Source: a virus. Taken from it: a stretch of 39,041 nt of DNA. Position numbers and translations under genes: made by a program. The notes beneath the pieces are model-generated. The model searched no databases, was not told the origin of the DNA, and was given only the letters and a program-made list of their open reading frames with translations. Shown here in pieces: positions 254 to 38,511 of the stretch. How positions within the stretch are numbered: the stretch's first letter is position 1; each line of letters opens with the position of its first letter. The stretch is from positions 1 through 39,041 of IMG/VR virus record IMGVR_UViG_3300047496_000205; one strand, 5' to 3'.

Positions 254-820
254 ATGACAAATAACATTCCTATGTCAAACGAAAGTTTAAATCAAAATCC
301 TCTCAACAGTTCCGATTCAAATAGCATTGACTATCGCTATGCTATAGTCAATGGAACCACTATGACAGGCTCTCTTATTTTGAGCGAAAATCCAACAGCT
401 AACTTACAGACGGCCTCAAAAGAATATACTGATCTCTATGGAGAGAACTTAAATCCAAATGTGATTACAAATGTTATGAGATATCCAGCATTATTACCTA
501 ATGCTGTAGTTAATCCTATAGTAGTATATATGAATCAATATTATGATGACAGACTTTTTCTAGTTCCTGGAGGCAATCAGTATGGAACTACTCTGGTATT
601 GCCTGCTGATGAATCCTACAACCATCCTATTGGAACTGTAATAGAAGCTATTTCCGGAGAATATAATTCAAATTTATATGTTGCGGCTGGTCCTAGTGCA
701 ATTGTATATATCGATAATGCAATTGATTCCGCTGATAGCGCCGGATTGTTTGCACACGTGCTCGCCACAAAAACTTCAGCAAATACTTGGACTGTTACCG
801 GAGATGTAACACCAGACTAA
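254..820 (+). CDS. Tail fibre/tip protein, paralogue of the upstream gene
   Basis: 188 residues. The ATG at 254 is preferred over an in-frame ATG at 218 because 218 lies inside the upstream gene, while 254 is 2 bases after its stop and has a GGA-containing ribosome site. Residues about 31-60 contain the classic phage fibre motif: a G-x-MTGSL-x-L stretch followed by P-T-x-N-L-Q-T-AS-KEYTD, equivalent to the MTG-L-L ... AATKQYVD repeat of tail fibres. The last 90 residues form the same tip module as the upstream gene, ending TVTGDVTPD. It probably belongs to a fibre trimer that contacts the host surface. Unlike the other structural genes nearby it lies on the + strand. Its stop overlaps the convergent homing endonuclease gene by 4 bases. 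Confidence 0.7.
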   Translation: MTNNIPMSNESLNQNPLNSSDSNSIDYRYAIVNGTTMTGSLILSENPTANLQTASKEYTDLYGENLNPNVITNVMRYPALLPNAVVNPIVVYMNQYYDDRLFLVPGGNQYGTTLVLPADESYNHPIGTVIEAISGEYNSNLYVAAGPSAIVYIDNAIDSADSAGLFAHVLATKTSANTWTVTGDVTPD

Positions 821-2652
821 GAAATAATCTTTGTCCATAACCAAACGGAGTTCCCACAATCCCAAATCTTTGTGTAATTCATAGAAAGCATGAATTGTTT
901 TTCTGTTAATTTTGGATCACAACCGTTTTTAATCAAATTAGATTTTCTAAAAGTAAACCTATGAAGTCTAGGCCCAACACTGTTTTTACTATACCAATAA
1001 CCAGGAGCGGTATTGTGAGAAAATTTCATGCCCATTTCTTGATAAACTTTTCCTGTTCCCCATCGTCTATCACAATAAGAAATTATTTTAGAAGGCTTAT
1101 ATTGTTTTTTGAAGTAAGAAAACATTTTACTTGCAATTCCAGGAATCGATCCTATTGATGCCATTCTTAATATTTCCCATTCATCATGAACTTTGTTTTT
1201 ACTCCCTAATGCATTACGTAAATGACCAAAAGTCATCACAGATAACAGTTTACCGTTAAAAAAAGCACCCAATTTTACTTTACTCTGATAATATCCTTGT
1301 ATATGATTATCAATTAAAAAAGTTTTTGCTTCTTTAGTGGTTATTTCTTTTACTATCGTCTGCCTTGCTCCACAAATTTTAGTATTTTTACCAAGTATAT
1401 GACTAATTTTATCTTGAATTAAGCTTAAATTTTTTATTTCATCTTCAAATATAGTGATTAAACGAATGCCTAATTCGTTACACTTTTCTAATTTGTTCAA
1501 ATGATATTTTTTATCTTTTCCCTGTTCTTCTGAATGCCAATATAACCCACAAACTTCAATAGCTAATTTTTTATCTGGTAAATAAAAATCAAGTTCAAGA
1601 GGCTTTATTATTGAACGATTACGAATCAATACATTTGTTTCTCCGCATTCTAATAAAAAATTATAAATTATTTGTTCAGGCGTAGTTAAATTTTTATTGT
1701 AGGTTACATCATATTTTATCAAATTATAACGAAGTGTTTGACGTGTTAATAAAGGATATGTAAATAATATTCCTTTTACACCAAGTCTATAAAATTCTGA
1801 AGTAAATGTTTCCTTATTACTGATTAGTTTTAATAAAGCACTGTCGTAATTTTTTTGATTGTAATAAGGCGCCCCATATTTTTCCAAACATGTATTTCTT
1901 ATTTGATCTTTTAATGCAAAACTATCCATAGGTTTTGTAGAGCCCCAACGAGCTAAATTGGTAGACAATTGTTTTTCTCTACATTTTTTATTTTGTAATG
2001 CATGATCTACGCCATATCTTTCTTGCATTACTCCTGTAAATTCATCACGCCGACTTATAAATGTCCCATTATATTTTTCACGCTGAGTTTGTAACGTTTT
2101 AGCAGAAATTTCAGTATTGCTCATGGGTGATTCAAACCCATAAATCTGTTTATTTTTAGTCTTTATCTTATTTTTTATTTCTGGATTCATTAAAGAAGTT
2201 TTAAAGCCAAATTTTTCAATTGAAGTTTTTTCTACTTTTTCTCGAAATTTATTACTCTGAGAAATATGTTCAACACCATAACGATTTAACACAGTTCTTT
2301 TTCTTTTTTCATTGGCAACTAGAATATCGTCGTTAGTCATATTTTGTTTTGCATTTGAAATCTTTAAACTGTGATTATCATGAGCACAGCGACATTTAGA
2401 TGGGATTCCACAAAACGTTTCCTTCGAAAGATTTTTATCCCACTTTAAATACTTTTTTTCATATTTGCATATACTAGGAAGTTTATTTGTTTTAATTAAA
2501 TAAATTCGTTGGTGTAATGAAATACCTTCAATAAATGCAGTTAGTCTCTCAACTTCTTCAACCAAATTTGATCTATTCTTAATCAATATATAAGCTTTAG
2601 ATTTCAGGATCGCATCTGATAATTCGGATGAAAGTTCATATTTTTTACTCAT
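817..2652 (-). CDS. Free-standing homing endonuclease (Hef/Vsr-like phage type)
   Basis: 611 residues from ATG 2652; a GTG at 2667 is in frame but would sit inside a promoter box. The middle holds at least four degenerate repeats of the type (R/K)YG-(V/A)-x-(H/Y)-x-x-Q, e.g. RYGVEHISQ, RYGVDHALQ and KYGAPYYNQ, which are DNA-binding repeats in phage homing enzymes. Residues about 335-400 form a Vsr-like PD-(D/E)xK fold: LELDFYLPD with D355, then AIEVCGLYWHSE with E366. The C-terminal 150 residues carry a YCDRRWGTGKVY motif followed by W-YSKN, a conserved domain of this enzyme class. It cuts DNA lacking its own gene and so spreads between phages. It is inserted between + strand fibre genes and - strand structural genes and has its own late-type promoter boxes. 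Confidence 0.85.
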   Translation of the reverse strand: MSKKYELSSELSDAILKSKAYILIKNRSNLVEEVERLTAFIEGISLHQRIYLIKTNKLPSICKYEKKYLKWDKNLSKETFCGIPSKCRCAHDNHSLKISNAKQNMTNDDILVANEKRKRTVLNRYGVEHISQSNKFREKVEKTSIEKFGFKTSLMNPEIKNKIKTKNKQIYGFESPMSNTEISAKTLQTQREKYNGTFISRRDEFTGVMQERYGVDHALQNKKCREKQLSTNLARWGSTKPMDSFALKDQIRNTCLEKYGAPYYNQKNYDSALLKLISNKETFTSEFYRLGVKGILFTYPLLTRQTLRYNLIKYDVTYNKNLTTPEQIIYNFLLECGETNVLIRNRSIIKPLELDFYLPDKKLAIEVCGLYWHSEEQGKDKKYHLNKLEKCNELGIRLITIFEDEIKNLSLIQDKISHILGKNTKICGARQTIVKEITTKEAKTFLIDNHIQGYYQSKVKLGAFFNGKLLSVMTFGHLRNALGSKNKVHDEWEILRMASIGSIPGIASKMFSYFKKQYKPSKIISYCDRRWGTGKVYQEMGMKFSHNTAPGYWYSKNSVGPRLHRFTFRKSNLIKNGCDPKLTEKQFMLSMNYTKIWDCGNSVWLWTKIIS

Positions 2653-2656
2653 GTTA

Positions 2657-2684
2657 TATTTATACACGAGCTTTGGTATTTATA
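2657..2684 (-). promoter_or_regulatory. Two tandem T4-type late promoter boxes before the homing endonuclease
   Basis: Two exact TATAAATA boxes on the - strand: 2677-2684 and 2657-2664. The nearer one ends only 4 bases before ATG 2652, so RNA from it would start at about the start codon. The outer box would give a leader of about 20 bases. TATAAATA is the T4 late-promoter consensus; use here is inferred. Confidence 0.65.
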
Positions 2685-3441: not shown

Positions 3442-6372
3442 TTATCCTAAAATTACTGTATTCGTTATAGAATTTCCGACTAAGAAATAATCATTTTGAT
3501 CTTGATAATACCATGCCCCATTAAGAACGTTTGAACCAACTAGATGGACATAATCTAAATATTTTGTTATGTATACTGTTGTATTTGCCGCAGGCGCAGT
3601 AAAAAATGTAACAACGGCATTTCCATCAACATTAGTTCCGGTATAATGAATATTTAAACTCTTTGGAATTGTTGTATTGTATGCCGTAGGAGTTATAACA
3701 ACGCCATTGGCATAAGTCAAAATGCCGTTAACAACAACCACTACATTAGAGACATCTGTAGATGGAAGCGTAAATGCGGTCGTAGTGCCATCACCAGAAT
3801 ATACTCCTTGAAGTGATTGTTGAACACATACCCGAGTATTATGAGTTCCACGTGTTATTTGACTTAAAGTAACATTTGTTCCATCTACCGCATAATCAAG
3901 AAATTCTATTCTTTCACCATTTATCCATACTACGCCCGGCTTTGTAGTATAACTGGTTGGTTCTATCATAGTATTGCTTAACATTTCTCTAACTGGAAGA
4001 GTAAATGGCATTACTCCAGAATTCATAGTAGTGATTGAAATAATTTTGCTATAAGGGTCTATTTCACTTGAAAGTACCCCGCCAATTTGTCCCCATTGAG
4101 TTACTTGCCACGAATCATAACGAGATACGTATCTATTACTTTCAATTTCACCTATATCAAAAACTAAAGTATCCAATGGTCGTTCATCAAAATCACCTAC
4201 TTCAATGGGAGCTAAAAGATCGTTACCAGGGCGAGAAGTAGAATATGATATACCAGTGGTAGTTGATCCATTATCATATAAAATCATATTCAACGATTCC
4301 GTAACTGTTAGAACAATTAACTCTGGAGGTCTATCAGAATCAATATGAGGATCAGATAAGCCATAAAAACTACTTGGTGGATTAATCGTTTCCAAAAAAA
4401 TGCCGGTTGAAGAACTACTATCCAGGTCGAAATCAGAATCACCTGAATTCATCTGTCCGCCATCAATTTGATTTTCTTTAAACTCCATGTCCATTAATCT
4501 ACGAATATTTTTTTCTGGACTGTCAGGAAAAATTGGAGCATAAAATGCAGATATGCGCTGAGCTTCGAGACCGGTAGATAGGTTATCTCTAACGACCAAA
4601 GAAACCCATGATTGGTTTGTTGGAGCATTAGCCAAGGAAAACGTATTTTCACTTGTTACAGTATATGCTGCATTCGAAAGACGATTTTCATCAACAAAAA
4701 CTTCTACTATTTTTGTTGTTAGATCAACATTTACGGTTGTAATCATAAAATTTAAAGAATTTCCAGTAGTGAAAAGAAAATCTTGTGTATAAATCACTGG
4801 CATATGAGCTACTCTATCGTAAATCATTTTTATATTGAAGTGGCGAACTGGATTCCAAGTCTGAGGATCATAATTATTAGGATCGGTTCCAGTATTTGAA
4901 TAACTGTAATACCAATCTTTCCATGGTTGTGTTGTTTGATAAACAAGCAAATCTGAAGGATCAGTTAAACTTAGTTGGCGATAAGCTGAAATTGAATTGT
5001 CATAATATGGAGGATTATCAAAATCGCTTACATGCGTATTTGCGTAGTCGATAGGTGGTGTATAAATTGTTGTAAAACTACGAATAGTTACACGATAAGG
5101 TTTAACTTCATCAATATAATTGATTAAACTTGTAGAAATATCTACCGGTTGAATTGGTGTTTGTAATAATGGTTCATTATATCCACCAATATTCATGAAA
5201 GATGTTTTAAATGCCCATGCTACTTGATCTTGTTGAGCGTGAATAAAATGCAGCATGCTAAAAAATGTTTCATTAACTTCAATATTTTGTAATAAAGAAA
5301 AATCTCTTAACGCATCATATAAATATCTTAGTTCCCAACTTCCGTCACGAATTGGAATTTTTGATAAATCTGCTAACGAAATAGGGTCTAATCCTATCAC
5401 TGGCGCCGCTGGATTATTATAAAATTTTGAAGAAAATCGAATCGTTCCGTTTTGCTGAGCGACAATAACCCAAGTTCCACTTACGAAAATTGTCCAAATC
5501 CAACTACCAGTGCCATCATCATTAACTTTAACAAAAATTGTTTGTGGATTAGCTCCTTCAGTAACATTTCTTGCGGCGATATTTGGATATATAACTACTG
5601 GTGGATTAGCAGGAGAATATCCGTTCGCATACCAATCATATAATGACCAAAAATCCATGGTAGAATAAGTTTGATATCGAGTAAGACTAAAACTTGTTCC
5701 ACCCATATATTTCCATACTGTCCAAAAATTGTAAGTTGCAGAATTGCCATCAACTAAAATTCTATCGCCGATATTTGGTGGATTTTCGCTGGTTAAAAGA
5801 TTATCTCTTTCACCAAGTGTGGCGACATGAAAAGAATAAGATAAAGCGATTGAAAATACTTCACCAGGATTATTCGCCAAATAATTAGCATCCACTGTTA
5901 CATTTGCAGTCGGTAAATTTGTTTCATATACACACCATTGCGGAGCATCTTCGTTTCCTAAACCATTAACAAGAATTCTTGGGAAATTTTCGTTTAAAAT
6001 GGCGGCAGCTATTTCCGGATTAAGTAAAAATCTATCTCTATCTTCTATACTAAAAAATTCATAATCCCATTCGGTATGAGGAGGCACAGGCTCAATGTGT
6101 TCTACGCCTACTGGTCTATGCCAAATCAAATATTGGTCAATAGGAGTTGTTGCAGAAAGTTTAGAAACTGCTTCAGGACGATCTATCGCAATCGGCGTTT
6201 GTGAGAAAATAACTTCATTTAAAAATCTAATAAAAGAACTTCTGGCATCAAATATACCCTGACGAGAAGTATCTGATACAAACATACTTTGTCCCGGTAA
6301 AATACCATTAGGTCCAAGATTATATGCTTGACCGTCAACAATAACTTCTGAATTTGTGTTAGGATATGTCAT
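3442..6372 (-). CDS. Large baseplate/fibre structural protein (976 residues)
   Basis: Long, Asn/Thr/Ser/Tyr-rich and almost free of Cys and Lys-rich stretches, as is typical of phage baseplate and fibre proteins. An N-terminal segment (residues 1-120) contains DARSSFIRFLNEVIF and EWDYEFFS. A central conserved block (about 345-430) reads RDGSWELRYLYDALRD, then FFSMLHFIHAQQDQVAWAFKTSF, then GYNEPLL and YIDEVKPYR. The C-terminus has beta-rich modules with the D-G-TTAFTLPS pattern, also found as D-TFSLPP near the start of the 3369-residue protein. It starts 5 bases after an exact TATAAATA and lies 34 bases downstream of the giant gene. It probably forms part of the same baseplate periphery. No T4 gene name can be assigned with confidence. 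Confidence 0.7.
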   Translation of the reverse strand: MTYPNTNSEVIVDGQAYNLGPNGILPGQSMFVSDTSRQGIFDARSSFIRFLNEVIFSQTPIAIDRPEAVSKLSATTPIDQYLIWHRPVGVEHIEPVPPHTEWDYEFFSIEDRDRFLLNPEIAAAILNENFPRILVNGLGNEDAPQWCVYETNLPTANVTVDANYLANNPGEVFSIALSYSFHVATLGERDNLLTSENPPNIGDRILVDGNSATYNFWTVWKYMGGTSFSLTRYQTYSTMDFWSLYDWYANGYSPANPPVVIYPNIAARNVTEGANPQTIFVKVNDDGTGSWIWTIFVSGTWVIVAQQNGTIRFSSKFYNNPAAPVIGLDPISLADLSKIPIRDGSWELRYLYDALRDFSLLQNIEVNETFFSMLHFIHAQQDQVAWAFKTSFMNIGGYNEPLLQTPIQPVDISTSLINYIDEVKPYRVTIRSFTTIYTPPIDYANTHVSDFDNPPYYDNSISAYRQLSLTDPSDLLVYQTTQPWKDWYYSYSNTGTDPNNYDPQTWNPVRHFNIKMIYDRVAHMPVIYTQDFLFTTGNSLNFMITTVNVDLTTKIVEVFVDENRLSNAAYTVTSENTFSLANAPTNQSWVSLVVRDNLSTGLEAQRISAFYAPIFPDSPEKNIRRLMDMEFKENQIDGGQMNSGDSDFDLDSSSSTGIFLETINPPSSFYGLSDPHIDSDRPPELIVLTVTESLNMILYDNGSTTTGISYSTSRPGNDLLAPIEVGDFDERPLDTLVFDIGEIESNRYVSRYDSWQVTQWGQIGGVLSSEIDPYSKIISITTMNSGVMPFTLPVREMLSNTMIEPTSYTTKPGVVWINGERIEFLDYAVDGTNVTLSQITRGTHNTRVCVQQSLQGVYSGDGTTTAFTLPSTDVSNVVVVVNGILTYANGVVITPTAYNTTIPKSLNIHYTGTNVDGNAVVTFFTAPAANTTVYITKYLDYVHLVGSNVLNGAWYYQDQNDYFLVGNSITNTVILG

Positions 6373-6377
6373 AACTC

Positions 6378-6385
6378 TATTTATA
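6378..6385 (-). promoter_or_regulatory. T4-type late promoter box, 5 bases before the start codon
   Basis: Exact TATAAATA followed by GAGTT and ATG 6372. There is no room for a Shine-Dalgarno leader: if T4 geometry applies, RNA begins at the ATG. Confidence 0.7.
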
Positions 6386-6406
6386 TATGTATTTTATCCA
6401 TACTTA

Positions 6407-9400
6407 TTAAGCTATTCCAGATGCAAATGCTTCAAGATTAACTATATTAGAAGCTACTATAACACCATCACTTACTCTTCGTATATTAACTTGTAATGTA
6501 ATTTGTTTATCAACATCGCCGCTATGATGAGCAACAGCTATAAGATTATAGCCAGTAAAATGATTTGCGCCCAAGTTATACCAAGTATTTAATGTTGTTC
6601 CAAATGCAGTAGTATCAATAGTCGATGTCCTAGTAGAACTTACATAAACGGCCTGAATTTCATAGTTAGAAGCTGGTTCATGTTGCGGATTCCAATCCGC
6701 AGTATATACCGTAGATGTACTTGTTATTCCATGCGTGGTCATTTCAACTACTGAACCATTAGCTGCCGATGGATAATACGAATCGTGGTCATTGATAAAC
6801 AAAATACTTGCTGCCGCATTTTCTGGATATATAGAATCTGAAAAAATATCATGTTCATTTAAGACGATAGTGCTTCCTGCTGGAGTTCCACCAACTGCTC
6901 CTTGAGACGGAAAGGTAATTTCGACATATCCTGGTGCTCCGTCTCCACCCCACCACCAACCAATTGAGCCAACGGCTCTGTCAGAGACCGCTGAGCCGCC
7001 TCCACCACTGCCGTAGCCCACGGCTGGTCCTGCTTGGAAAACACCGCTGTAGGCCGCGTTGGCGCCCGCTGTAGGCCCTGCGGGATCGCCGCCGCTTCCG
7101 GGTGTACCTGAGAGACCACCAACAGAATTTGCAAGTGGACCAGTTGCACCGGCTCCCCCAGTTGGGCTTGACGTATCAGAAGTTCCGGCTGGCCCCAAAT
7201 ATCCAGCAATACCGTTAGGAGTTCCAGCGAGACCACCGGGAGTATTGATGAAACCTATACCAGTATTTGTAGCGGATGGAGCACCACCGCCGCCTCCCAC
7301 CATAACAACATTGTTTCCATTAAGAAGAATTACAGTATCTCCACCATTTGTTGCATTAGGAGGTGGAGTTAAACCGGTATTAGTTGGATAACGTCCTCCA
7401 TATCCATGTCCACCAATATTGAAGGTAAATATATCTCCTGGATTACATGCAACATTACCGTAGTAATGATAATAGCCGCCGCCGCCCCCGCCAGAACCAC
7501 CAGCACCATTTCCACCTTGCGTGCCTTCTGATCCACCGCCGCCGCCCGCAATGACCCACGTAAACATTACATTATGAATGCCAGAAGGCACAGTAAATGT
7601 GGTCGAGTTAGCGAAACCCAACGTTACAGGAGCAGGATTTGCGATTGTGTAAGTAAAGCTTTGAGGAACAATAGAAATACCATCAGTTACCGCAACCGTA
7701 AATGGTACGACAGTATTGGCTATAGCTCCCAAAGTTCCACTTATAATAGCGGTATTTGCTGAATTGGATAATGATAAACCAGTTGGAAGAGAACCCGCTG
7801 TAACACTATAAGTTAGAGGGAGACTATCAAAATCGGTAGCAATTAACGTTAATGAAACGGTATCTCCGCTTGCTCCCGACCCCAAGTTTCCGGCTGGCGT
7901 GGTCCAAAGTGGCGGGTATGCGACAGGAATATCTGAAGTAACAGAAAAATTTCTTGATACACCAACGACACCATCAGATGCCGTAACTGTAAAGTAATAA
8001 GTTGATGTATTAGAAACTATTGGTAATATACCACTCACAAAACCTGTAGTGTTCATAGTCATTCCAATTGGTAGAGCACCATTAGAAATAGTATAAGCTA
8101 ATGGTGTTGGATGACCTTCTGGGGTAGCTGCAACCAATTGAAAAGAAAAAGAATTTGCAATAAATCCGCTTCCGATACTTCCAGCAGGTGTTGCCCAAAC
8201 AGGAGGTTGATTTCCGGTTATAGAAATACTAAAATCTCTATTTGTATAAGCTCCAATAGAATCCATTGCTTTAACAGTAAAATCAAACTCCGTCGCATTT
8301 GAAAGTAATCCAACAGTTCCAACTATGGAATTAGAACTAATAGTTAATCCGGCTGGCAATGCTCCATTTGCTATACTATAAGTTACGGATAACAATCCTG
8401 GACTATTAGCCAGCATTAGAATATCTTGAGAAGTATTTTGATCAAAAAGTCCAATACTACCGGACGCTGGATATTGCCATACTGGAGGAAGAGAAACATA
8501 AAGAGATTCTATTTCAAAATCTCTCTCTACCGTATAGAAACCATTTGTGACATTAACAGAAAAATCAACAATAGTATTAGCAGGTGGAGCGGTAATAGGC
8601 GGATATGAACCAAAAATCAAACCATTTGAATATAAAGTTAACGATGATGGTAACGTCGAATTGGTTATAGAGTAAGTCAATGCATCTGACTGTGGATCAG
8701 TTGCAAGTAATTGATAAGAAATAGCATTTCCGGTATAAGCAGATGCAATAAGTCCAGCATTGGTAACCCAAACTGGCGGATGATTTACGTTAACAGTAAT
8801 AGAAAACGATTGTGGAGTATATGAAACACCGTTAAAAGCATTAACAGTAAAATTCCAAGTATAATTAGAAGTATCTACTTCGTTATCTATATTTTCTAAA
8901 GTTAATGTACCTGATATTAAACCAGTTTGTGGATTTAGTGTTGAACCTAACGGTAAACTACCGTTTGATATATAATATAGCATAGGATTACCTTGTGGAT
9001 CAACCGCAATTAAAGTAGCCAAGAATGAATCACCACTATATGTTAATGGAGCATGTCCTGAAGTATTTGGAAGATTACCCGAAGGAGTCTGCCAAACAGG
9101 CGGTAAACTATTTGGAGGGGTAATATTTGGGTTCATAGTATTGCTTGGAGTTGAAACTTTATTGTCGTCAAAACCAACTAAGCTATCGCGCATCTTTGCC
9201 CACAACCAATCTGACGGCAAAGATGTTTCGTCATTGGGTCTAAGTAGTTGCCATTGATCATGGATAACTCCTTCGTCCCTATATCCACTGCTATCAACTC
9301 CATGATTATCAACTTCGACTTGCAATACTGTTCCTGATACGGTTCCGAATGCATCATTTACATACGTTTGAACACCACCGACCATCAAGCCATTATCCAT

Positions 9401-17754: not shown

Positions 17755-20700
17755 TTAACTAATCCGTAAATTATTTGGTGTGTTAGAATTAATTATAATA
17801 ATATTTGAGACTTGTGCAGTGCTGATAAACAACTCATCACTTCGGCACTGAATTTCAAACAAATCACCAAATGAAGCTCCACTAAATGTTGGAACTAAAA
17901 CAATGCTTCCAATTATGTTTGGTAGTTGTTGATGAACATATGCTGCCAATTCCGTAAAATAGAAACTCTCTCCAAAATCCCAATATTGAACGCTGAAATA
18001 ATTGTTGATTGCACGAACAATTTGGCTGGTGATTTCACCGGAACTTAGGGTTGATGTTGGAACGGTTATGACCTTAAACTGCGCCTGTAACTCTGGATCG
18101 GCCCCTGGCCCAAACAGGAATTTGTATTGAACTGGGCGCCAAACGATTTGGTCACTGTATATTTTATATTGCTCAAAATCTTGGAATGCAAGGCGCAAAT
18201 CTAGTTCTGTGGGCGCGGTAGGCATTTGCGAAGGAATGGCTCCGGCGGCGATCCAGAGGCGCACCAAATAATCATATGATGACGTTAGGACAAAAATATC
18301 GTTTATGTTCGTTCGAGCCGGGTCGATTCTCTGATTTATCGGTGCATAATGTTTCCACTGGAACATCATAGCCTCTGGAGATTGTAAAACAACTGGAGCG
18401 GTATTTGCGGCATACCAACGGCCAGCGACATTTGATCCTCTACCAATACCATATGAATATGTTCCTGGACCTTGTAGGGTCCATGTAGAAGACGTTGAGT
18501 TGGCCGTAGTGCATAGCCAAAATGTGTTTGTAAGCAATGCGTTATTGCTATTGATTTGGAAACCGACCGTATTTACAGATACAACCGTATTAACGCGATC
18601 TGTTTCTTCTTCAAACATATAGACCATATTTGGAAATGGTATATCACCATAAGTATCGTCATGTTGCCAGAACAAATGATTTTGGGCGACGCTATTGGAA
18701 ATAATTTTTTCAAAAGTATCTGGATAATCAGAAGTACCAGTTAAGAAACTATCAGCAAAAGTCACTGTAATTCTTCTAGGATTAGCTGAACCATTACGAT
18801 TGAAGTAGATTCTGTTGATGTCTAAGTCATAATTTTGACTAAGAGCGACGCCGGTAAGCGTAGTCGTATTAGCAACAAAGTTGTTCAAATCTTCATTAAC
18901 TTTCAGAACTCTTACTAAATCGTTTGCAACAACACCTGTATCTTGATCAGTCGTGCGACTTCCGTCATAAAACCATTGAACGTTATTATTGCTCTCAAAA
19001 ACATATCTTAATCCATTAGCCGAAAGCGTCCAAGTTCCTGCGCCAGAGTATTGAACTGCCATAATTTGGAACATGGTTGAAGTAGGCGATACAGGATTCG
19101 CGCTAGAAATAACTACCCAAGGAGATTGAACAGAAGAAGGATACACACTATAATCATACCAAAGAGTAAAAGATAAGTTATTAGTTAGATTTGTTGTTAT
19201 TGCTGCAACAGTAATAGAATCCAAAACTGTAAAGAAACTTGGAATAATATATTCTATTGTTGAAGTCGATGGGATAATGCGAGAAAGAGTTACTGGTCCA
19301 GCGGTTCCGGCTGGAGGAGCGATAGTTGGATCACCAACAATACTCACAATAGTTGACCACATAGGACCAGACCCAGTATTAAATAATACTGTCGCCCCTT
19401 GACGTAAATATGTTGGTGAAGCACTAAAATAGCCAGTATTACTAAAACTTGTATTAGAAGAAGCTTGCGTCCAAATTATACCAGATGCCGAAACAATTTG
19501 CGTATAAAGGTACGAATTAATATAGTTAATCACTTCAACTCTATCAATCATAGGCTGAATATATTGAGTTATTATATTACTTGCCGATGCATTCAAGGTA
19601 ATAGGTAATTGCGTATAAATATTATACTTTTCTTGAAAGAAAATACCATCATCTGAGAAAACAACTACGTCTTTATATGTTCCAGTTGGATCGTTTAAAT
19701 CAATAAAACGAGAATGACCCGAGTATATTCTATTAGTGGATTTGATTTTTGTGGCCAAATTACTTTGAAGTGGAAATGTATTATAATCCTGTCCTGACAC
19801 CATTCTATTTTGGGTGGCATACACAGATGGTGCTCTAGCTTTTACCTGATCATCCGTTTCGGCTGGAGCGGAGTTAGATATGGTCTGTTCCAAAGAAAAC
19901 GTTAGTGTCAACGTCTGCTTTACACCGCCTCTATTGTAATAAGGAATAGATAAATTCACATTTTGTATATCGGTGGGTTGAATTTGATATTGAAGTCCAT
20001 TTGAAGTACGATAAAAAACTCGTATATTACCAGTGGGCACATTGCCAAACAAACCATCGGAGAACCGAATACCTATTGAATCATTTTCGCCCGTAATTAC
20101 GGCAAAAATGTCTCTAATAGATGGATCAATATTGTTATAAGTTATGTTTTGACTAAAAATCGCGGGAACTTTTGTCCATGAATATAAAATATCTCCAGAA
20201 TCATTTACAGTTTGAACCCAAACATCTGAATTATTTACGCCGGTCGCATTGACATTTATAATGTTGTTTTCTATTGGATTAGGAATATTATATGTTGCTC
20301 TTTGTAATGTTCCTTGTTTAAATAACATGAAAAAACCAGTTAAACTACTGGAATATCCTTGCCCATCGTTCATATATAATACATGAAGAGCATCTGAAAA
20401 ATTTGGCTCACGTTCTACTATAGAACCACCATCAATAAAATCACTATTGACTACACTAAAATCCATATTAGTGCCACCGATTGATTTCGAAAAAGCAAGA
20501 TTAGCATCCGACATTACATTATTAAAGCGATAAAGCTGAGTATTTATTGATGCTACCAACCCGCTATTAAGTGGAACTCCAAACTGATTGGTTGAAATAA
20601 AAGAACTATTGAGAATTAACAGAAAACGTTCAAACCAATTTGGATCATCAGGATTATCCCATACTATCGTTTGATTATTTAAATTGGCACCAAAAGAATC

Positions 20701-21090
20701 ATATACATTATCTGTAGTTTTAATACCTACTAATTTTAAAATTCCTTGTGCTTCTTGGTTACGTTGTGGATTATATGAAATAAAACGAGCCAGTCGTAAA
20801 ATAGCGGTTCGTGTTTCGGCAGTGTCTAGAAAACTTTCTCTGGCATTAATATCCGTTCTAAAAGCTAATGTTCCGGCTAACCATGAAAGAAGATCGATGA
20901 TCGCTACAAATTCAGACGAAGTAATCCAATCGTTATAATTCTCCGGATAATTTTGCTGCAAATATGCCTGTAATGCAGCATTGATACTGGCTGGATCAGA
21001 GGCATTAAAATTAATATCGGTGAAAGCTTGATATAAAACCGTCCAATCATTTCCAGCGAACAAATCCGATTGTCTAAGTGATTGACTCAT
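17755..21090 (-). CDS. Baseplate wedge protein, T4 gp6 / baseplate J family
   Basis: 1111 residues, against about 660 for T4 gp6. The N-terminal signature of the family is clear: residues 60-110 read EFVAIIDLLSWLAGTLAFRT, then INARESFLDTAETRTAILRL, then ARFISYNPQRN. The C-terminal 150 residues contain YDYLVRLWIAAGA, then QYKFLFGPGADPELQAQF and ITSQIVRAINNYF, which match gp6-type ends. The middle carries extra beta-rich Asn/Thr/Ser segments that account for the larger size. gp6 forms the ring joining the wedges around the tail hub. The gene lies 32 bases downstream of the gp25-like gene, in the order expected for a wedge operon. The ribosome site is AAAAGGAAA before ATG 21090. Confidence 0.88.
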   Translation of the reverse strand: MSQSLRQSDLFAGNDWTVLYQAFTDINFNASDPASINAALQAYLQQNYPENYNDWITSSEFVAIIDLLSWLAGTLAFRTDINARESFLDTAETRTAILRLARFISYNPQRNQEAQGILKLVGIKTTDNVYDSFGANLNNQTIVWDNPDDPNWFERFLLILNSSFISTNQFGVPLNSGLVASINTQLYRFNNVMSDANLAFSKSIGGTNMDFSVVNSDFIDGGSIVEREPNFSDALHVLYMNDGQGYSSSLTGFFMLFKQGTLQRATYNIPNPIENNIINVNATGVNNSDVWVQTVNDSGDILYSWTKVPAIFSQNITYNNIDPSIRDIFAVITGENDSIGIRFSDGLFGNVPTGNIRVFYRTSNGLQYQIQPTDIQNVNLSIPYYNRGGVKQTLTLTFSLEQTISNSAPAETDDQVKARAPSVYATQNRMVSGQDYNTFPLQSNLATKIKSTNRIYSGHSRFIDLNDPTGTYKDVVVFSDDGIFFQEKYNIYTQLPITLNASASNIITQYIQPMIDRVEVINYINSYLYTQIVSASGIIWTQASSNTSFSNTGYFSASPTYLRQGATVLFNTGSGPMWSTIVSIVGDPTIAPPAGTAGPVTLSRIIPSTSTIEYIIPSFFTVLDSITVAAITTNLTNNLSFTLWYDYSVYPSSVQSPWVVISSANPVSPTSTMFQIMAVQYSGAGTWTLSANGLRYVFESNNNVQWFYDGSRTTDQDTGVVANDLVRVLKVNEDLNNFVANTTTLTGVALSQNYDLDINRIYFNRNGSANPRRITVTFADSFLTGTSDYPDTFEKIISNSVAQNHLFWQHDDTYGDIPFPNMVYMFEEETDRVNTVVSVNTVGFQINSNNALLTNTFWLCTTANSTSSTWTLQGPGTYSYGIGRGSNVAGRWYAANTAPVVLQSPEAMMFQWKHYAPINQRIDPARTNINDIFVLTSSYDYLVRLWIAAGAIPSQMPTAPTELDLRLAFQDFEQYKIYSDQIVWRPVQYKFLFGPGADPELQAQFKVITVPTSTLSSGEITSQIVRAINNYFSVQYWDFGESFYFTELAAYVHQQLPNIIGSIVLVPTFSGASFGDLFEIQCRSDELFISTAQVSNIIIINSNTPNNLRIS

Positions 21091-21122: not shown

Positions 21123-21521
21123 TTAAGCACCATAACCGGGCGACGATTCTTCTTTATTGAAGATGGCTGTGAACGTTCTTACAACATTTAACCCATTATA
21201 TAATAGTAATAAATCAACTCTAATAGAATTATCTGTTGCCGTTACAGTAACATTATTCACCGTTACTCTGGTATCTTCCTCACAAATATTTATTGCCTCA
21301 TTTATGATCAACCCTTCGTTCGTAGGCGTCATTTGTTCCATTAAGTAATCCCAAATCTTACATCCCCAAGTTGGGCGCATAACGCGTTCACCTACTCTTG
21401 TCTGAAAATGATTCATCAAATCTCTATTGACCAAATCAATATCATAGTAAGTCCATTTACGATTTAAATTATTACCAATGGTACTGAAACCAACAAAAAG
21501 ATAAGAAGGAGAATTAGCCAT
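21123..21521 (-). CDS. Baseplate wedge protein, T4 gp25 family
   Basis: 132 residues, the same length as T4 gp25. Family features are visible: DLVNRDLMNHFQTRVGERVM, then RPTWGCKIWDYLMEQ, where R-G-ERVM-P-GC-I is the gp25/W family core. This is followed by IINEAINICEEDTRV and alternating hydrophobic beta strands. In contractile systems gp25 sits at the wedge core and starts sheath assembly. It starts 5 bases after an AATAAATA late box and is followed directly by the gp6-like gene. It is divergent from the helicase. Confidence 0.92.
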   Translation of the reverse strand: MANSPSYLFVGFSTIGNNLNRKWTYYDIDLVNRDLMNHFQTRVGERVMRPTWGCKIWDYLMEQMTPTNEGLIINEAINICEEDTRVTVNNVTVTATDNSIRVDLLLLYNGLNVVRTFTAIFNKEESSPGYGA

Positions 21522-21526
21522 ATACC

Positions 21527-21534
21527 TATTTATT
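21527..21534 (-). promoter_or_regulatory. Late promoter box before the gp25-like gene
   Basis: AATAAATA, then GGTAT, then ATG 21521. The 5-base gap is the same as for the gene starting at 6372. It probably serves the gp25-gp6 operon. Confidence 0.6.
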
Positions 21535-23483: not shown

Positions 23484-23825
23484 ATGATTGGATATAAACT
23501 ATTTCATATAAGACGTGACGGTTCTATTGGTCCATTATTTATAAATCGCAAACAACGAATACATGTCGGTGAAAGATTAATAGCAGAGGCACATCCGACT
23601 AAAGGTTTTGCTTATCGACCGGGCTGGCATGTGTGTTGTGAACCTTTGGCTCCACATCTTTCTAAAAAAGAAAGAGAATGGTTTGTGGTAGAAATTGAGG
23701 ATTGGGTAGAATTTTCGCGTCCGGTTTCACAAGGTGGTCTGTGGTTTACTGCAAATGTAATGACGGTTTTACATCGTTATCAGGCAAATACCCATACGCT
23801 TCCATTATACCATACAGGAGCATAA
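23484..23825 (+). CDS. Conserved small phage protein (113 residues)
   Basis: Starts at ATG 23484. The sequence contains RRDGSIGPLFINRKQRI, then KGFAYRPGWHVC, then APHLS-KEREW-VVEIEDW and FSRPVSQGGLWF. I recognise this as a recurrent but uncharacterised phage and bacterial family (RPGWH ... APHLS ... RW-VE pattern). The natural family end should fall near VMTVLHRY. The last dozen residues here are read through the complement of the convergent fibre gene, with which it overlaps by 46 bases (23780-23825). It probably lost its original stop or was trimmed by recombination. Confidence 0.7.
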   Translation: MIGYKLFHIRRDGSIGPLFINRKQRIHVGERLIAEAHPTKGFAYRPGWHVCCEPLAPHLSKKEREWFVVEIEDWVEFSRPVSQGGLWFTANVMTVLHRYQANTHTLPLYHTGA

Positions 23826-24919
23826 ACGCTTCCATTACCAACAGCATTTCCCATAAAGACCGGAGAATTAGCATCGGCGACGATTGCTCTGGCTCCTAAA
23901 GCAACGTTAGATACGGGCAAAGTAGCAACTATATACAAATTAGAAATTGCATTTGCGTTGGCGGCGGCGACTACCGCATTGATGCGAGTGCTTAACGCAG
24001 CATCACCAGCAATTCTTGCGCTTGTTTCAGTAGAACCATTTGTAGTTAGAATAGCTATATTTGATTGAAGGAGCGCTATATTTGCGGTATTATTTGCAAT
24101 AGCTGGTCCAAATGTTGCGTTTAACGTTGTTATAGTATTGTTAGCGACAATAACTTGTGAAATTGTATTAGACAATAAGGTATTTGTATTACTTACTACA
24201 GAAGTCAAATTGTTAAGATTTGTAGTGAGAACAGTATCAGCCGAAGAACGCGTATTTGATTCACTGGCTAAAGAATTTGACAAATTTGAAATTGAAGCGG
24301 CTACTGCATTAGCATTAGCTGTTAAAGCCAATGACGTAATTTGACTTTGTAGATTTGTGTCAGCGTTTGCTCTATTAATTTTTTCGGCATTAAGATCAGA
24401 CTGAGTATAAGAAACCGCTGCATTTGCCGCGATCACCGCTTGAGCTACTGCTGTATTTGATACGATTGCTAACTGTGAGATCATATATCCCAAAGGCACG
24501 GCATCTGAAGAAAGCGAAGGAGAATAATCTAATTGCAAATGAGTAGTAACTTCTAAATTTGAAAAAACAACACTTCCGACATTGTTTTGAGAAATTAATG
24601 TTCTCCAACCAGAACCATCATAATATTGAACCGAATTTGATATATAGGCTAAAATGCCTGCCGTTGGCGAACCTGTTGGCGAACCTGGAAGTTGAAGGGC
24701 GTTGTTTGGATAAACTAAATGATAGGTAATAGCTCCACCAGAACCTTGAGATACTGAAAATGCAATAACACTAGCATTATCATTAACTGCAGTCTGAAGA
24801 TTTTCTACCGCAGTCTTAATAATACCAAAATTATCACGAAATTGTTGAGAAGGCTGATCAACGTTTGGTGTTGGAAAATTTGGATTATAAACTAAGGTAA
24901 GGCCAGTATCTATGCTCAT
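23780..24919 (-). CDS. Tail fibre protein with long coiled-coil shaft (379 residues)
   Basis: The N-terminus (MSIDTGLTLVYNPNFPTPNV then DQPSQQFRDNFGIIKTAVEN) is of the type seen in fibre attachment domains. It is followed by YYDGSGWRTL. Residues about 160-330 are Ala/Asn/Ser-rich helices with three related units (LNAEKINRANADTNLQSQI, ESNTRSSADTVLTTNL, ETSARIAGDAALSTRI) fitting a trimeric coiled-coil shaft. The end, NGSVYAPVWYNGSVWVF, is a short beta tip found on phage fibres. The start codon lies 6 bases after an exact TATAAATA. It should form a thin trimeric fibre attached to the baseplate. The 3' end overlaps the convergent gene 23484-23825. Confidence 0.78.
   Translation of the reverse strand: MSIDTGLTLVYNPNFPTPNVDQPSQQFRDNFGIIKTAVENLQTAVNDNASVIAFSVSQGSGGAITYHLVYPNNALQLPGSPTGSPTAGILAYISNSVQYYDGSGWRTLISQNNVGSVVFSNLEVTTHLQLDYSPSLSSDAVPLGYMISQLAIVSNTAVAQAVIAANAAVSYTQSDLNAEKINRANADTNLQSQITSLALTANANAVAASISNLSNSLASESNTRSSADTVLTTNLNNLTSVVSNTNTLLSNTISQVIVANNTITTLNATFGPAIANNTANIALLQSNIAILTTNGSTETSARIAGDAALSTRINAVVAAANANAISNLYIVATLPVSNVALGARAIVADANSPVFMGNAVGNGSVYAPVWYNGSVWVFA
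23796..23837. repeat. 12-bp direct repeat 30 bp apart
   Basis: ACGCTTCCATTA occurs at 23796-23807 and 23826-23837. It encodes the repeated NGSV(Y/W) of the fibre tip and lies across the overlap of the two convergent genes. Confidence 0.7.
24664..24687. repeat. 12-bp tandem duplication in the fibre gene
   Basis: TTGGCGAACCTG occurs twice in direct succession and encodes a GSPTGSPT stretch in the fibre protein. It looks like a simple slippage expansion. Confidence 0.7.
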
Positions 24920-24925
24920 AGGTTC

Positions 24926-24933
24926 TATTTATA
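24926..24933 (-). promoter_or_regulatory. T4-type late promoter box, 6 bases before the start codon
   Basis: Exact TATAAATA, then GAACCT, then ATG 24919. No Shine-Dalgarno sequence lies between box and start. Confidence 0.7.
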
Positions 24934-24935
24934 CT

Positions 24936-27011
24936 TTAAAGAGAGGTTGCTTGAACTGATGAATTTCCTATCGCGGTTCCCATACTTGCGAAACTTTCTG
25001 GAATATAAGGTGGCATTCTTATTAATTGTTTTTGAGAAAAATCTGGTGAGAAAAATCGTGTAGTCAAATCGAAAATAGTTTGATTGCCATCAAATGTTGT
25101 AGAATCACCGGGATATAATACATAATACTGATCAAACCATATTTCATAACCATTTGCCATAGGATTAGGTGAGTCATAAGACTGTTCAATAGGCGCATGA
25201 CGTTGACGAATATTATTTAAAATAGTCGCTCCGGTTCCAGGTTTAAGATATGCTACAACCAAAGCAGGTATATACCCTAAAGCAGAGGCAGGATTGTTAT
25301 TTCCTTGTGGGCTAGTCATCCACAATGGAAGATTTTCGGCCGTTCCTATTCCAAGTGCATGTCGAAAAGCTGGATTAGTAGCAGGGATACCTAAAGCGTT
25401 GACAAATTCATAACGTATATTATTGATACTTGTTGGATATACATACTGAGGATGTCCCGATAAAGATTCTGGATAAATTACTGGATCAATAACTGGCACA
25501 TTATTAATTAAAGTATATCCACCGGCTTTTTCCAATGGATCATAAACTGGTCTATATAATACTTCATATGCAACGTTACCATTAATTACTGCATAGGCAA
25601 GAGCATGATCACCCAAAATTAACTTAATTGGGCGATCATAATTAGATTGTGAAGCAACACTTTGAAAAGAAACCGGAATACTGGCTCTTAATAAAAATAT
25701 AGTATAGGTATTAATAAAGTTTTGATCAGTGGGTCTAAAGATAGAGGAAGGAGATATTACGGTATTATAATAATTTTCCATTGGCTTTTTGTCATTAACT
25801 CGTAGCAAAAAATCCATTTCAAGAAATTCATTATTATAGTACAGGGTTTGCGTTGAAATAGAAAAAGTTCTATCAGCATAAGCTCCATCGACGAAAGCTC
25901 TTATTGCAAAAGTATATATTTGATTTGTGGAAATAAAACCTAAAGTTCCTTCTATATTTCCATTTAAAGAATTAAGAATAAGATTAGGAGGAAGACTCGA
26001 TGAAATTACTCGATACGATACTGGACCTCCAGTAGTACAAAATGCACTAACTGACATCGCACAAATTGTACCAGAAATTAATGTACCCAAACTTCCAGGA
26101 TAAGTATTCCAAATAACTTTCTCAAATGGCGAAAGAATATTGAATGGAGGATTTACTTGAATACCACAAACAAGTGGAGTTGCCCCTGAACCAGAAGTTA
26201 TAGGATCATTATTACTATCTGTCATAGTAAGTTTGAAAAAATATTGTCCAACAGGTAAAACTGTATTCACAGAACCAGTAATCAAACCGGTTCTATTATT
26301 CAATACCAATCCTGTTGGGAAAGCATTAAATGGTGCGGTAATAGATTCCGATCCTGTAAAATTACCAAGAGTGAGATACGGTTGTAATCCATTAGGTTCA
26401 TAGAGACTAAATTGATATAAAAACGGCTCTCCACGGTTAGTTGAACCTAACGGATAATATTGAAATCCGGCTGCCGCCGTAATTTGAGAAGGTAATGCCC
26501 CCCATCCCGGAGGAACCACTACGGTTGAAACTGGAATAGCGTTTATCGAAAGCTGTCGATCTCTACTAAAAAATCCATCAGTAATTCTAATAGCAAATGT
26601 ATATATTAACGGGTCAAGACTTGGGATTAAACCAACTAATCCACTAATCAATCCGGTTGAACTAATAGATAGACCAGGAGGAAGACTGTTGTATAGAAGT
26701 GAATAGGATATAACATCCGATGTATATATCGAAAATATATCAGTTGGCAGCAAAGTATGGGTAAATTGAACAGCGTTAGATAAAATAGTAAATGAAACTG
26801 CATCACCATTTACTAAAATTAGATTAACATTCGCCGAATTTGTTCCAATTTCTAAAACCGTTTGAGAACCAGCTTGTGTAACGCTATCATCACTACCCAT
26901 GCATTGGGCCATTCGAACAGCAGCTAACTGAATATTAGCTGAAACATTTTGAGTAACGCTGCCCGGTAAAAGACCGACTGGTGTCAACCAAGTGGGATAG
27001 AATGTGATCAT
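24936..27011 (-). CDS. Ig-repeat tail/baseplate structural protein (691 residues)
   Basis: The N-terminus (MITFYPTWLTPVGLLPGSVT) precedes three He_PIG-type Ig-like units, recognised by SLPPGLSISSTGLISG (about residue 112), FPTGLVLNNRTGLITGSV (about 230) and SLPPNLILNSLNGNIEGTLG (about 345). Each is followed by an YTFAIR-type strand. The C-terminal 300 residues form a different domain with DRPIKLILGDHAL, a Y-YP-S-NN-RYEF segment, and a proline-rich Asn-rich end. It is most likely a fibre or baseplate decoration protein. The Ig units resemble those of the 3369-residue protein. It lies 16 bases upstream of the coiled-coil fibre gene and starts 4 bases after GATAAATA. Confidence 0.72.
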   Translation of the reverse strand: MITFYPTWLTPVGLLPGSVTQNVSANIQLAAVRMAQCMGSDDSVTQAGSQTVLEIGTNSANVNLILVNGDAVSFTILSNAVQFTHTLLPTDIFSIYTSDVISYSLLYNSLPPGLSISSTGLISGLVGLIPSLDPLIYTFAIRITDGFFSRDRQLSINAIPVSTVVVPPGWGALPSQITAAAGFQYYPLGSTNRGEPFLYQFSLYEPNGLQPYLTLGNFTGSESITAPFNAFPTGLVLNNRTGLITGSVNTVLPVGQYFFKLTMTDSNNDPITSGSGATPLVCGIQVNPPFNILSPFEKVIWNTYPGSLGTLISGTICAMSVSAFCTTGGPVSYRVISSSLPPNLILNSLNGNIEGTLGFISTNQIYTFAIRAFVDGAYADRTFSISTQTLYYNNEFLEMDFLLRVNDKKPMENYYNTVISPSSIFRPTDQNFINTYTIFLLRASIPVSFQSVASQSNYDRPIKLILGDHALAYAVINGNVAYEVLYRPVYDPLEKAGGYTLINNVPVIDPVIYPESLSGHPQYVYPTSINNIRYEFVNALGIPATNPAFRHALGIGTAENLPLWMTSPQGNNNPASALGYIPALVVAYLKPGTGATILNNIRQRHAPIEQSYDSPNPMANGYEIWFDQYYVLYPGDSTTFDGNQTIFDLTTRFFSPDFSQKQLIRMPPYIPESFASMGTAIGNSSVQATSL

Positions 27012-27015
27012 CGGT

Positions 27016-27023
27016 TATTTATC
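27016..27023 (-). promoter_or_regulatory. Late promoter box, 4 bases before the start codon
   Basis: GATAAATA, then ACCG, then ATG 27011. One mismatch to TATAAATA. No ribosome site is visible between box and start. Confidence 0.6.
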
Positions 27024-31246: not shown

Positions 31247-31254
31247 AATAAATA
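31247..31254 (+). promoter_or_regulatory. Late promoter box for the + strand operon
   Basis: AATAAATA, then GGATG, then ATG 31260. The gap to 31260 is 5 bases, the same as elsewhere, and favours this ATG over the one at 31257. Confidence 0.6.
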
Positions 31255-31259
31255 GGATG

Positions 31260-31889
31260 ATGGCAAGCACCGATTTAGAAAAAATTCAGGATTCACCACA
31301 TCTAATTGATATTTTGATTCAAATGGAAGATGTTCTTGATTCTTTAGATATTTACGTTTTCAAGAATTGGTCACGTGGAATTATAGCTGAAGGCCCAGTA
31401 ATCAGACGATATTGGCTGGATTTTACATTGAGATACGATTTTGATAAAATGCCTGATCCAAAAGCGGCTCTTAGATTATTGAAGCATGGTCTCAGAGTTG
31501 ACTTCTGGAAGGGAAAATTGCAAAATGGCGAATACGTGGATTACAAAGATGCTCCAGCAGATTCAGATCAAAGCAATGATTTACCAGAGGGTGGTAGTTT
31601 AAACGATGTTGACGAAAGTCAAACCGAAATTACCCAAGATAAAGATTTAGTTTGGCTTGTTCGTATATCTATACCAAGACGTTTAATTCAACAAATGTCT
31701 GCGGAAGAAAATATGTTCTATGAGGAAGAAGTTGATACCGAAGATGTCGAAGCTGCTGAAGATTCTGGTATAGATGACGAAAGTGCATATATGAGCGATG
31801 AAAGTGGTCAAGAAGGAGGACAGATGCCGCCAAATCAATTCGGTGGGCAAAATGAACAAGTACCACCAGGACAAGGACAACCTAGATGA
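31260..31889 (+). CDS. Conserved phage protein of unknown function (209 residues)
   Basis: First gene of a + strand late operon. ATG 31260 is chosen for its spacing to the late box; ATG 31257 is adjacent. The ordered part (residues 1-150) contains MEDVLDSLDIYVFKNWSRG, then VIRRYWLDFTLRYDFDKMPD and KHGLRVDFWKGK, and recurs in T4-like environmental phages. The last 70 residues are acidic then Gln/Gly/Pro-rich (GGQMPPNQFGGQNEQVPPGQ), so probably disordered. The stop overlaps the next start as ATGA. Late timing suggests a virion or assembly role, which is inferred. Confidence 0.65.
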   Translation: MASTDLEKIQDSPHLIDILIQMEDVLDSLDIYVFKNWSRGIIAEGPVIRRYWLDFTLRYDFDKMPDPKAALRLLKHGLRVDFWKGKLQNGEYVDYKDAPADSDQSNDLPEGGSLNDVDESQTEITQDKDLVWLVRISIPRRLIQQMSAEENMFYEEEVDTEDVEAAEDSGIDDESAYMSDESGQEGGQMPPNQFGGQNEQVPPGQGQPR

Positions 31890-33085: not shown

Positions 33086-33093
33086 AATAAATA
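33086..33093 (+). promoter_or_regulatory. Late promoter box with a normal leader
   Basis: AATAAATA, 33 bases before GTG 33127. Here a leader with GAAGGGA ribosome site is present, in contrast to the short-gap promoters. Confidence 0.5.
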
Positions 33094-33411: not shown

Positions 33412-33419
33412 TCTAAATA
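33412..33419 (+). promoter_or_regulatory. Possible late promoter box before the PAS gene
   Basis: TCTAAATA, 36 bases before GTG 33456. Two mismatches to TATAAATA, so weak. Confidence 0.3.
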
Positions 33420-37764: not shown

Positions 37765-38511
37765 TTATTTTTCTTTGTTATTGGCTCTTATATAGTATGT
37801 ATATTTCCCCAATTGAGTGTCTACAGACATCGATAAAATCCCTCTATTTGATACCCTAAGAGAATTTACGTTAAAACCAACAAGCCCGAGAACGGTCATA
37901 ACCAAAGAGGTAGGAAATAAAAGGGGAACTTTAACTGTTCCGTTAATGTTTTTTTCCATAGTCATAGATATTCTATGTGTAGAAGAATTTTCGTCACCGA
38001 TAAAAAATTGGCAGTCGCCTTTTATAGTACGAATACCAAATTCCTTACTATCTACATCGGCATACATTTTAATTATCTGTTGTAATTCTGTAATTTTAGA
38101 TTTAGTTGGTTGTATATCTATATCCCAAGCAATAGTTGGAAAAACTGCTTGCACTGGAATTTGACTAGGGTGCATCATCCTAAAATCAGCGTTATTTCCA
38201 GAAACAGGATTTCTAAACTCAAATTGCTCAATCCACTCTGAACCGTCTTTGTCTTCTTTTTTCGTAACCGATATTGAGGCATCGTCGGTTTGATAATTGG
38301 CAAAATTTAACAAACCATAAAGAAGTTTAGTATTCGCCATACCTAACTTTGCATTATAATTGAATAATGGCTGAGATATTACGCCATATACGAAAAGATT
38401 TCCTTCTTTATCATGACATTCAGCAATAGTTTCTCTGTCATTAACAGTTATGCATACTGCTTTACAATCAATAGAAGTCTGCTTGAGAATATCTAACAGA
38501 ATATCTCGCAT
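37765..38511 (-). CDS. Probable DNA polymerase sliding clamp (T4 gp45-like)
   Basis: 248 residues, near the 228 of T4 gp45. ATG 38511 has GGAGAT upstream. The sequence alternates beta strands and helices as in clamps. The C-terminal half has LLFPTSLVMTVLGLVGFNVN followed by SLRVSNRGILSMSVDT and GKYTYYIRA, matching the final strands of phage clamps, where the end reads like S-G---V-T-LG-Y-Y-L. Context is strong: it lies directly downstream of the DNA polymerase gene and upstream of the nuclease. It would form a trimeric ring holding the polymerase on DNA and, in T4, also activates late promoters with gp55 and gp33. Similarity is too low by eye to be certain. Confidence 0.6.
   Translation of the reverse strand: MRDILLDILKQTSIDCKAVCITVNDRETIAECHDKEGNLFVYGVISQPLFNYNAKLGMANTKLLYGLLNFANYQTDDASISVTKKEDKDGSEWIEQFEFRNPVSGNNADFRMMHPSQIPVQAVFPTIAWDIDIQPTKSKITELQQIIKMYADVDSKEFGIRTIKGDCQFFIGDENSSTHRISMTMEKNINGTVKVPLLFPTSLVMTVLGLVGFNVNSLRVSNRGILSMSVDTQLGKYTYYIRANNKEK

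Follow-up and report, generated by a model that had tools for sequence, protein, structure and literature searches.

Where does an mRNA begin when a late promoter of the bacteriophage T4 type lies directly against the start codon of the gene that it precedes? This question is raised by the viral record IMGVR_UViG_3300047496_000205, a genome fragment of 39,041 bases (G+C 36%) that was analysed over its whole length and is referred to here as the window. In it, copies of a T4-like late box end four to six bases before six start codons. Judging from promoter geometry in the window and in related genomes, we consider it highly probable that gp55-type late promoters give rise to leaderless mRNAs of some late genes and to leadered mRNAs of others. 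The initial annotation had gone further and suggested a late programme built on leaderless translation. By promoter geometry a subset of late genes fits that description, but the statement as a whole is too strong, since the same phages carry late genes with leaders and Shine-Dalgarno (SD) sequences.

Late boxes and start codons in the window

Each of the six boxes that had been listed is present at the distance (gap) claimed for it. On the minus strand, TATAAATA occupies 2657..2664 (gap 4 to the ATG at 2652), 6378..6385 (gap 5, ATG 6372) and 24926..24933 (gap 6, ATG 24919), while AATAAATA occupies 21527..21534 (gap 5 to the gp25 ATG at 21521) and GATAAATA occupies 27016..27023 (gap 4, ATG 27011). 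On the plus strand, AATAAATA at 31247..31254 stands at gap 5 to the second ATG of its gene (31260) and at gap 2 to the first (31257). A further copy of TATAAATA (2677..2684, minus strand) lies 24 bases upstream of the ATG at 2652. Two late-type boxes on the plus strand occur in the leadered mode, namely AATAAATA at 33086..33093, 33 bases before the GTG at 33127, and a weak TCTAAATA at 33412..33419, 36 bases before the GTG at 33456. The initial annotation gave these two genes normal ribosome sites; the box distances hold, and purine-rich SD-like stretches are present, but they lie about 10-11 bases from the GTG, which is a long spacing.

Allowing up to one mismatch, the box is found at gap 4-6 before 6 of the 27 gene starts in the window; among all ATGs the proportion is 0.6%, which gives a binomial p of 1.2e-8. 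Under the same count, the mean for 55 permuted words is 0.60, and the highest value, 4, comes from an overlapping word shifted by one base; none of 5000 shuffles attained six boxed starts. When the starts at 2652 and 31260, which were picked with the box in view, are left out, 4/27 remain (p 2e-5). The one-mismatch word occurs 141 times in the window against 132.7 expected and is thus not over-represented; since its placement beside starts is nevertheless enriched, the signal lies in the position of the box and not in its abundance. Scans of the window for sigma-70 promoters and terminators performed no better than chance.

Base-sharp spacing in the genomes of relatives

To compare whole genomes, the distance was counted from each ATAAATA to the next ATG opening an open reading frame (ORF) of at least 60 residues, with the 20 other arrangements of the same letters serving as controls. 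In HTVC008M, a phage of SAR11, nine boxes lie at exactly gap 5 (control mean 0.2), and six do so in Mosig, another SAR11 phage (control words average 0.9, maximum 4). Three are found at gap 5 in Melnitz, a phage of OM43, and the IMG/VR contigs G006, G005 and G003 contribute seven, five and three, together with a broad second hump at approximately 15-42 bases. Together these six phages have 33 boxes at gap 5, where the controls average 2.25 and do not exceed 7; the neighbouring gaps 4 and 6 have 3 and 2. A peak one base wide points to the place where transcription starts and is hard to explain otherwise.

The closest relatives sampled, the contigs G008 (561 kb, 56% identity) and G009 (500 kb, 49%), were retrieved through the virion protein encoded at 31260-31889 of the window. 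The pattern ATAAATA-N4-6-ATG occurs 32 times in G008 against 3 for the reversed pattern, and 28 times against 1 in G009. Within 400 kb of each, gaps 4, 5 and 6 are represented by 11, 15 and 3 boxes in G008, where chunks were picked mostly around matches and totals therefore lean upward, and by 16, 3 and 0 in the first, unselected 400 kb of G009 (control means below 1; 0.0 for gap 4 in G009). Over that stretch of G009 the box occurs 41 times, against an average of 10 for control words. The whole-genome scan proposed in the initial annotation thus reveals, in relatives, a sharp peak beside the start codon, and the window's own gaps of 4-6 look typical of its lineage.

Other phages place the box elsewhere. 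No box in T4 lies closer than 12 bases to an ORF start (range 12-35), none lies closer than 12 in RaK2 or closer than 10 in Syn9, and none stands at gaps 4-6 before an ORF in the 460 kb of Atu_ph07 that were sampled. At gap 5 there is one box each in P-SSM2 and S-PM2 and 0 in Syn9.

The box is enriched before gene starts, including those of virion genes, in the window and in relatives. Box-abutting genes in relatives encode the tail tube, a tail sheath stabiliser and virion proteins, as well as gp2, gp25, gp48 and endonuclease VII; in G008 and G009, gp25 and endonuclease VII are among the products, as are a virion structural protein and a tail sheath stabiliser. Two side observations concern the word itself. 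In relatives such as G006 and RaK2, ATAAATA is scarcer than its permutations, as if stray late boxes were selected against; RaK2 has 66 copies, whereas the permutations average 362. In G009, the palindrome TATTTATAAATA lies between divergent genes (C1:43803-43828, locus L429) and sets a box four bases upstream of each of the two ATGs, so that 12 bp could serve as a leaderless promoter in both directions.

Translation signals and correctness of the start codons

None of the six box-abutting starts in the window has an SD match, as had been claimed. Across the eight phages rich in abutting boxes together with the window, an SD of at least four bases precedes 8 of 91 box-abutting starts, in contrast to 111 of 132 starts with a box 12-40 bases upstream; in T4, 25/30 leadered starts have one. 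Genes internal to late operons of the window (starts at 21090 and 3311) retain SD-like sequences. The gp6-like gene (17755..21090) has a weak SD (AGGA) and no late box within one mismatch.

On comparison with homologues, the key start codons are right. The first residue of gp25 is identical in box-abutting and SD-led homologues, and in HTVC008M, Mosig and Melnitz all 18 gap-5 ATGs opening ORFs of at least 60 residues are the starts annotated by the depositors. Among downstream start candidates of the six window genes, codon 48 of gp25 alone has a fair SD match; the others have none, or a weak one at a TTG. N-terminal conservation rules out codon 48 as the true gp25 start.

Conservation at orthologous promoters and distribution among lineages

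Because gp25 lies just upstream of gp6, its promoters could be collected without regard to the box: gp6 alone served to retrieve eighty loci, while the gp25 protein as sole query found no viral relatives. At these loci there are 31 distinct gp25 promoters, of which 27 have the box at gap 5 and the other four at gaps of 8, 22, 23 and 27. Likewise, 6 of 8 distinct gp2 promoters in relatives of HTVC008M have gap 5. Among 39 gp25 promoters of pelagiphages, 15 are at gap 5, 12 at gap 6 and 10 at gap 8; on this comparison the pelagiphages are a third lineage with the abutting arrangement.

In a gp6 tree, 42 distinct marine sequences with box-abutting gp25 form one clade. The window, with its own box-abutting gp25, falls apart from them among Phosso and two large IMG/VR contigs, G001 and G002, all three of which have leadered gp25 genes. 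The abutting arrangement has therefore been gained or lost at least twice. Orthologues of the gene at 31260 in G001, G002, G008 and Atu_ph07 have the same box with a leader, and the G008 orthologue of the gene at 24936..27011 has box, leader and SD.

An explanation by host lineage, under which all T4-like phages of Alphaproteobacteria would share the arrangement, was dropped: the rhizobial phages phiM12 and phiM9 contain no ATAAATA-N5-ATG site, Atu_ph07, which infects Agrobacterium, lacks boxes at gaps 4-6 before an ORF in the 460 kb sampled, and Melnitz infects OM43. Homologues of gp55 are encoded in 15 of 15 relatives tested.

Predicted position of the transcription start

Counted from the transcription start, the late box of T4 spans positions -13 to -6 (PMC1524935); a gap of 5 therefore sets +1 on the A of the ATG. 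Together with the sharp peak in relatives, this geometry supports the earlier claim that RNA would begin on or near the start codon. In the window, the first purine near a T4-type start point would be the A of the ATG or its neighbour, and the peak at gap 4 in G009 suggests a late start point one base earlier in that phage. A pyrimidine at -1 is found in 68 of 71 abutting promoters and in 112 of 185 leadered ones (p 2e-9, with some gp25 loci counted twice). This bias fits the A of the ATG as +1, since a pyrimidine is the usual context of a +1 purine. The base at -13 varies among 54 distinct gap-5 promoters, which tolerate the NATAAATA form, the box being TATAAATA-like at about -10. Boxes eight bases before an ATG, one codon further out, were also noticed in HTVC008M (59714 and 109429) and Mosig (89800), with ATT ATG or GTT ATG at the expected start; this form is common at pelagiphage gp25.

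Proposed mechanism and alternative explanations

We propose that transcription from the abutting promoters would start at the first base of the start codon, or at most one base away from it, so that the late polymerase would make leaderless mRNAs, mostly for the first genes of transcription units. A homing endonuclease would belong to this set in the phages considered here, together with proteins of the baseplate, of the virion and of DNA-end protection. Host ribosomes would engage such mRNAs at the AUG on their 5' end; translation of genes further down these units, and of the remaining late genes, would start through SD sequences. A likely benefit would be gating, in which a start without an SD stays silent on read-through early RNA and becomes active once the late promoter fires. 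Most of the abutting genes (30/38 in the six pooled phages) follow a gene on the same strand; read-through RNA would carry no SD for them, and RNA from the late promoter would begin with AUG. Such gating would operate without hairpins, where T4 uses hairpins that mask the SD.

Several points weigh against this proposal. The gaps in the window are spread over 4-6 with no peak at 5, and at gap 4 a T4-type +1 would fall on a U, so that a shifted start must be assumed there. G008 and G009 show less of the pyrimidine bias at -1, and at some pelagiphage gp25 genes the gap is 6 or 8, which would leave leaders of 1-3 bases. No gp55 was seen within the 39-kb fragment, in which a gp45-type clamp fold is present, and no primary-transcript data were found for any phage concerned. 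Two further points bear on gating, again in the six phages: abutting and leadered promoters lie equally often in tandem (30/38 versus 77/96), and intergenic lengths of 34 and 43 bases, respectively, differ slightly (p 0.02). Genome compaction as the sole reason for the arrangement is unsupported, since intergenic lengths differ so little, and it may contribute.

Among other readings, the mRNAs could be leaderless without being late, the boxes being read by a host or other sigma factor outside the gp55 regulon. Many abutting genes of G008 and G009 have no known function, as this would allow, but the word is ATAAATA and not TATAAT, and other A/T permutations produce no such peak. The same word followed by a leader and SD precedes structural genes, the abutting genes of relatives themselves include the baseplate, tail, virion, gp2 and endonuclease VII genes named above, and gp55 is found in every relative tested; we regard this reading as improbable. 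It is also conceivable that the mRNAs begin upstream at other promoters, with the boxes incidental or minor and translation achieved by coupling or by SD-independent 30S binding. Read-through RNA probably does cover the 30 of 38 abutting genes that lie close downstream of a same-strand gene. Incidental boxes would not, however, produce a one-base peak (33 at gap 5 with 3 and 2 beside it), hold their spacing in 27 distinct gp25 promoters, or be accompanied by the -1 pyrimidine and a selective loss of SD sequences, which makes such an origin very improbable.

If, instead, the start codons were wrong and the true starts lay downstream with SD sequences, the promoters would be ordinary leadered ones. 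Start choice is indeed uncertain at 2652 and 31260, and the SD-like match before codon 48 of gp25 is of the kind expected. Against this stand the shared first residue of box-abutting and SD-led gp25 homologues, the full agreement with the depositors' starts and the poor quality of the other downstream candidates, and we find this reading extremely improbable. Chance in an A+T-rich genome would agree with the ordinary abundance of the one-mismatch word across the window. It does not account for the position of the boxes there (p 1e-8) or for the repetition of that position in independent genomes, even in G009, where the composition of the word is rare; the relatives already refute chance, and its probability is negligible. 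Late promoters that yield leaderless mRNAs for some genes remain our preferred explanation.

Relation to known systems

T4-type late transcription and leaderless translation are each textbook subjects, and T4-like late boxes are already known from cyanophages and jumbo phages; what would be new is the junction of such promoters with leaderless translation. No published account of leaderless T4-like late mRNAs, or of a leaderless placement of the box, was found in the open-licence literature, beyond which a report may have escaped us. The promoters discussed here share with those of T4, which depend on gp55, gp33 and gp45, the same 8-bp box and the lack of a -35 element, with gp55 in the relatives and a gp45-type clamp in the window; they differ in that the box adjoins the start codon, while T4 boxes are at least 12 bases away. 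The T4-like cyanophages S-PM2, Syn9 and P-SSM2 have NATAAATA late promoters with the same box (PMC2984593), but mostly 15-45 bases upstream and with no peak at gap 5. Predicted ATAAATA late promoters precede structural genes in the RaK2-like jumbo phages CBB and GAP32 (PMC5259590), which have relatives of the window's gp6 and gp25; the boxes of RaK2, in contrast, keep the larger distance given above.

Leaderless genes of the lambda cI type resemble the present case in that a -10 element beside the start codon implies a 5'-terminal AUG (PMC3160421, PMC9031893). They involve host sigma factors and scattered genes, whereas here a phage late box precedes a regulon-like set. T4 gates its gene e and I-TevI by hairpins that mask the SD, so that product is made solely from late transcripts (PMC3014915). 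The logic proposed here, expression from late transcripts only, is similar, and one of the window's six genes encodes a homing endonuclease; in T4, however, an SD is hidden, while the window genes have none to hide, and gating here is hypothetical.

If the proposal is correct, SD sequences would play no part in the translation of some virion proteins, both in marine phages of SAR11 and OM43 and in half-megabase phages. Fifteen late promoters have been counted in Melnitz (PMC9004378), and late-promoter prediction was reported as unsuccessful in pelagimyophage genomes (PMC7029224), a failure for which abutting placement offers a reason. Annotation of starts and promoters would be corrected, and each phage's late start point could be measured with a one-base ruler.

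Ribosomal protein bS21 and a shared N-terminus

Expression of phage-encoded bS21 tracks late infection (PMC9723584). The gene is present in 7 of the 8 phages with an abutting peak (HTVC008M, Mosig, Melnitz, G005, G006, G008 and G009, but not the 136-kb fragment G003) and in 3 of 14 without one, a comparison that ignores kinship. It is conceivable, if rather doubtful, that several T4-related lineages run part of their late programme leaderless and that the bS21 which they also encode adapts host ribosomes, late in infection, to initiation at 5'-terminal AUGs. The presence of bS21 in phages, so far unexplained, would thereby acquire a link that can be tested. G009 carries two copies of bS21.

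A shared N-terminus, M[RK]xx followed by a hydrophobic pair, x and E (e.g., MRDLLNIVE and MRAYEILE), is frequent among the products of the abutting genes of G008 and G009 (L407-L446). In G008 it is found in 13 of 29 abutting genes against 6 of 605 other ORFs (p 4e-15), and in G009 in 7 of 19 against 18 of 601. It resembles MKTYQEFIAE, the capsid-targeting sequence of T4. The proteins that share it may be head-internal and delivered with the DNA, in which case a single late switch in the half-megabase relatives would supply the head with a group of internal proteins. One such protein has an ART-PolyVal ADP-ribosyltransferase domain.

Identity and gene content of the window

Protein matches assign the window, as a genome fragment, to the Atu_ph07/RaK2 kind of T4-related jumbo phage. 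The gp6-like baseplate wedge protein of 1111 residues (17755..21090, minus strand; PHROG 10646, 1055 bits), encoded downstream of gp25 in one operon, matches solely T4-related jumbo phages (Phosso and Atu_ph07 at approximately 41%; SCTP-2, 121Q, RaK2, GAP32 and kin). The window's baseplate and virion proteins have homologues in Atu_ph07/RaK2-type phages, and in the gp6 tree it groups with G001 and G002, then with Phosso and Atu_ph07. The ORF at 37765..38511 (minus strand) is predicted to fold as a PCNA-type sliding clamp, the protein class of the T4 late-transcription activator gp45 (AlphaFold pLDDT 77; Foldseek match to PCNA, E 8.5e-11).

Of the six genes whose starts adjoin a box, five are on the minus strand. 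They encode a homing endonuclease (817..2652; PHROG 3339, E 1e-104), a virion structural protein matching the C-terminal part of the relatives' giant virion protein (3442..6372; PHROG 10938), a gp25-like baseplate wedge protein whose N-terminus is conserved across the gp25 loci compared (21123..21521; PHROG 43, E 1e-14), a protein with no PHROG or Pfam family, a homologue in G008 and a probably structural role by position (23780..24919), and a probable virion protein with Ig-like domains (24936..27011; Pfam He_PIG, E 3e-17). The sixth, on the plus strand, encodes a virion structural protein (31260..31889; PHROG 12928).

Three further features were noticed. The giant virion protein, a single ORF of 4449-4555 residues in Atu_ph07 and Phosso, is divided in the window (3442-16516, minus strand) into 3369 and 976 residues, and the box-abutting ATG at 6372 stands at this split. 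An M16 (insulinase-family) peptidase at 29912-31180 (minus strand), unusual as phage cargo, has both Pfam domains, no PHROG match and a homologue in G008; it gave no host clue, with only a 32% match to an Ignavibacteria bin. Finally, the ORF at 33456-34220 (plus strand) has a weak PAS-domain match (E 1e-5) that lies under the Pfam cut-off.
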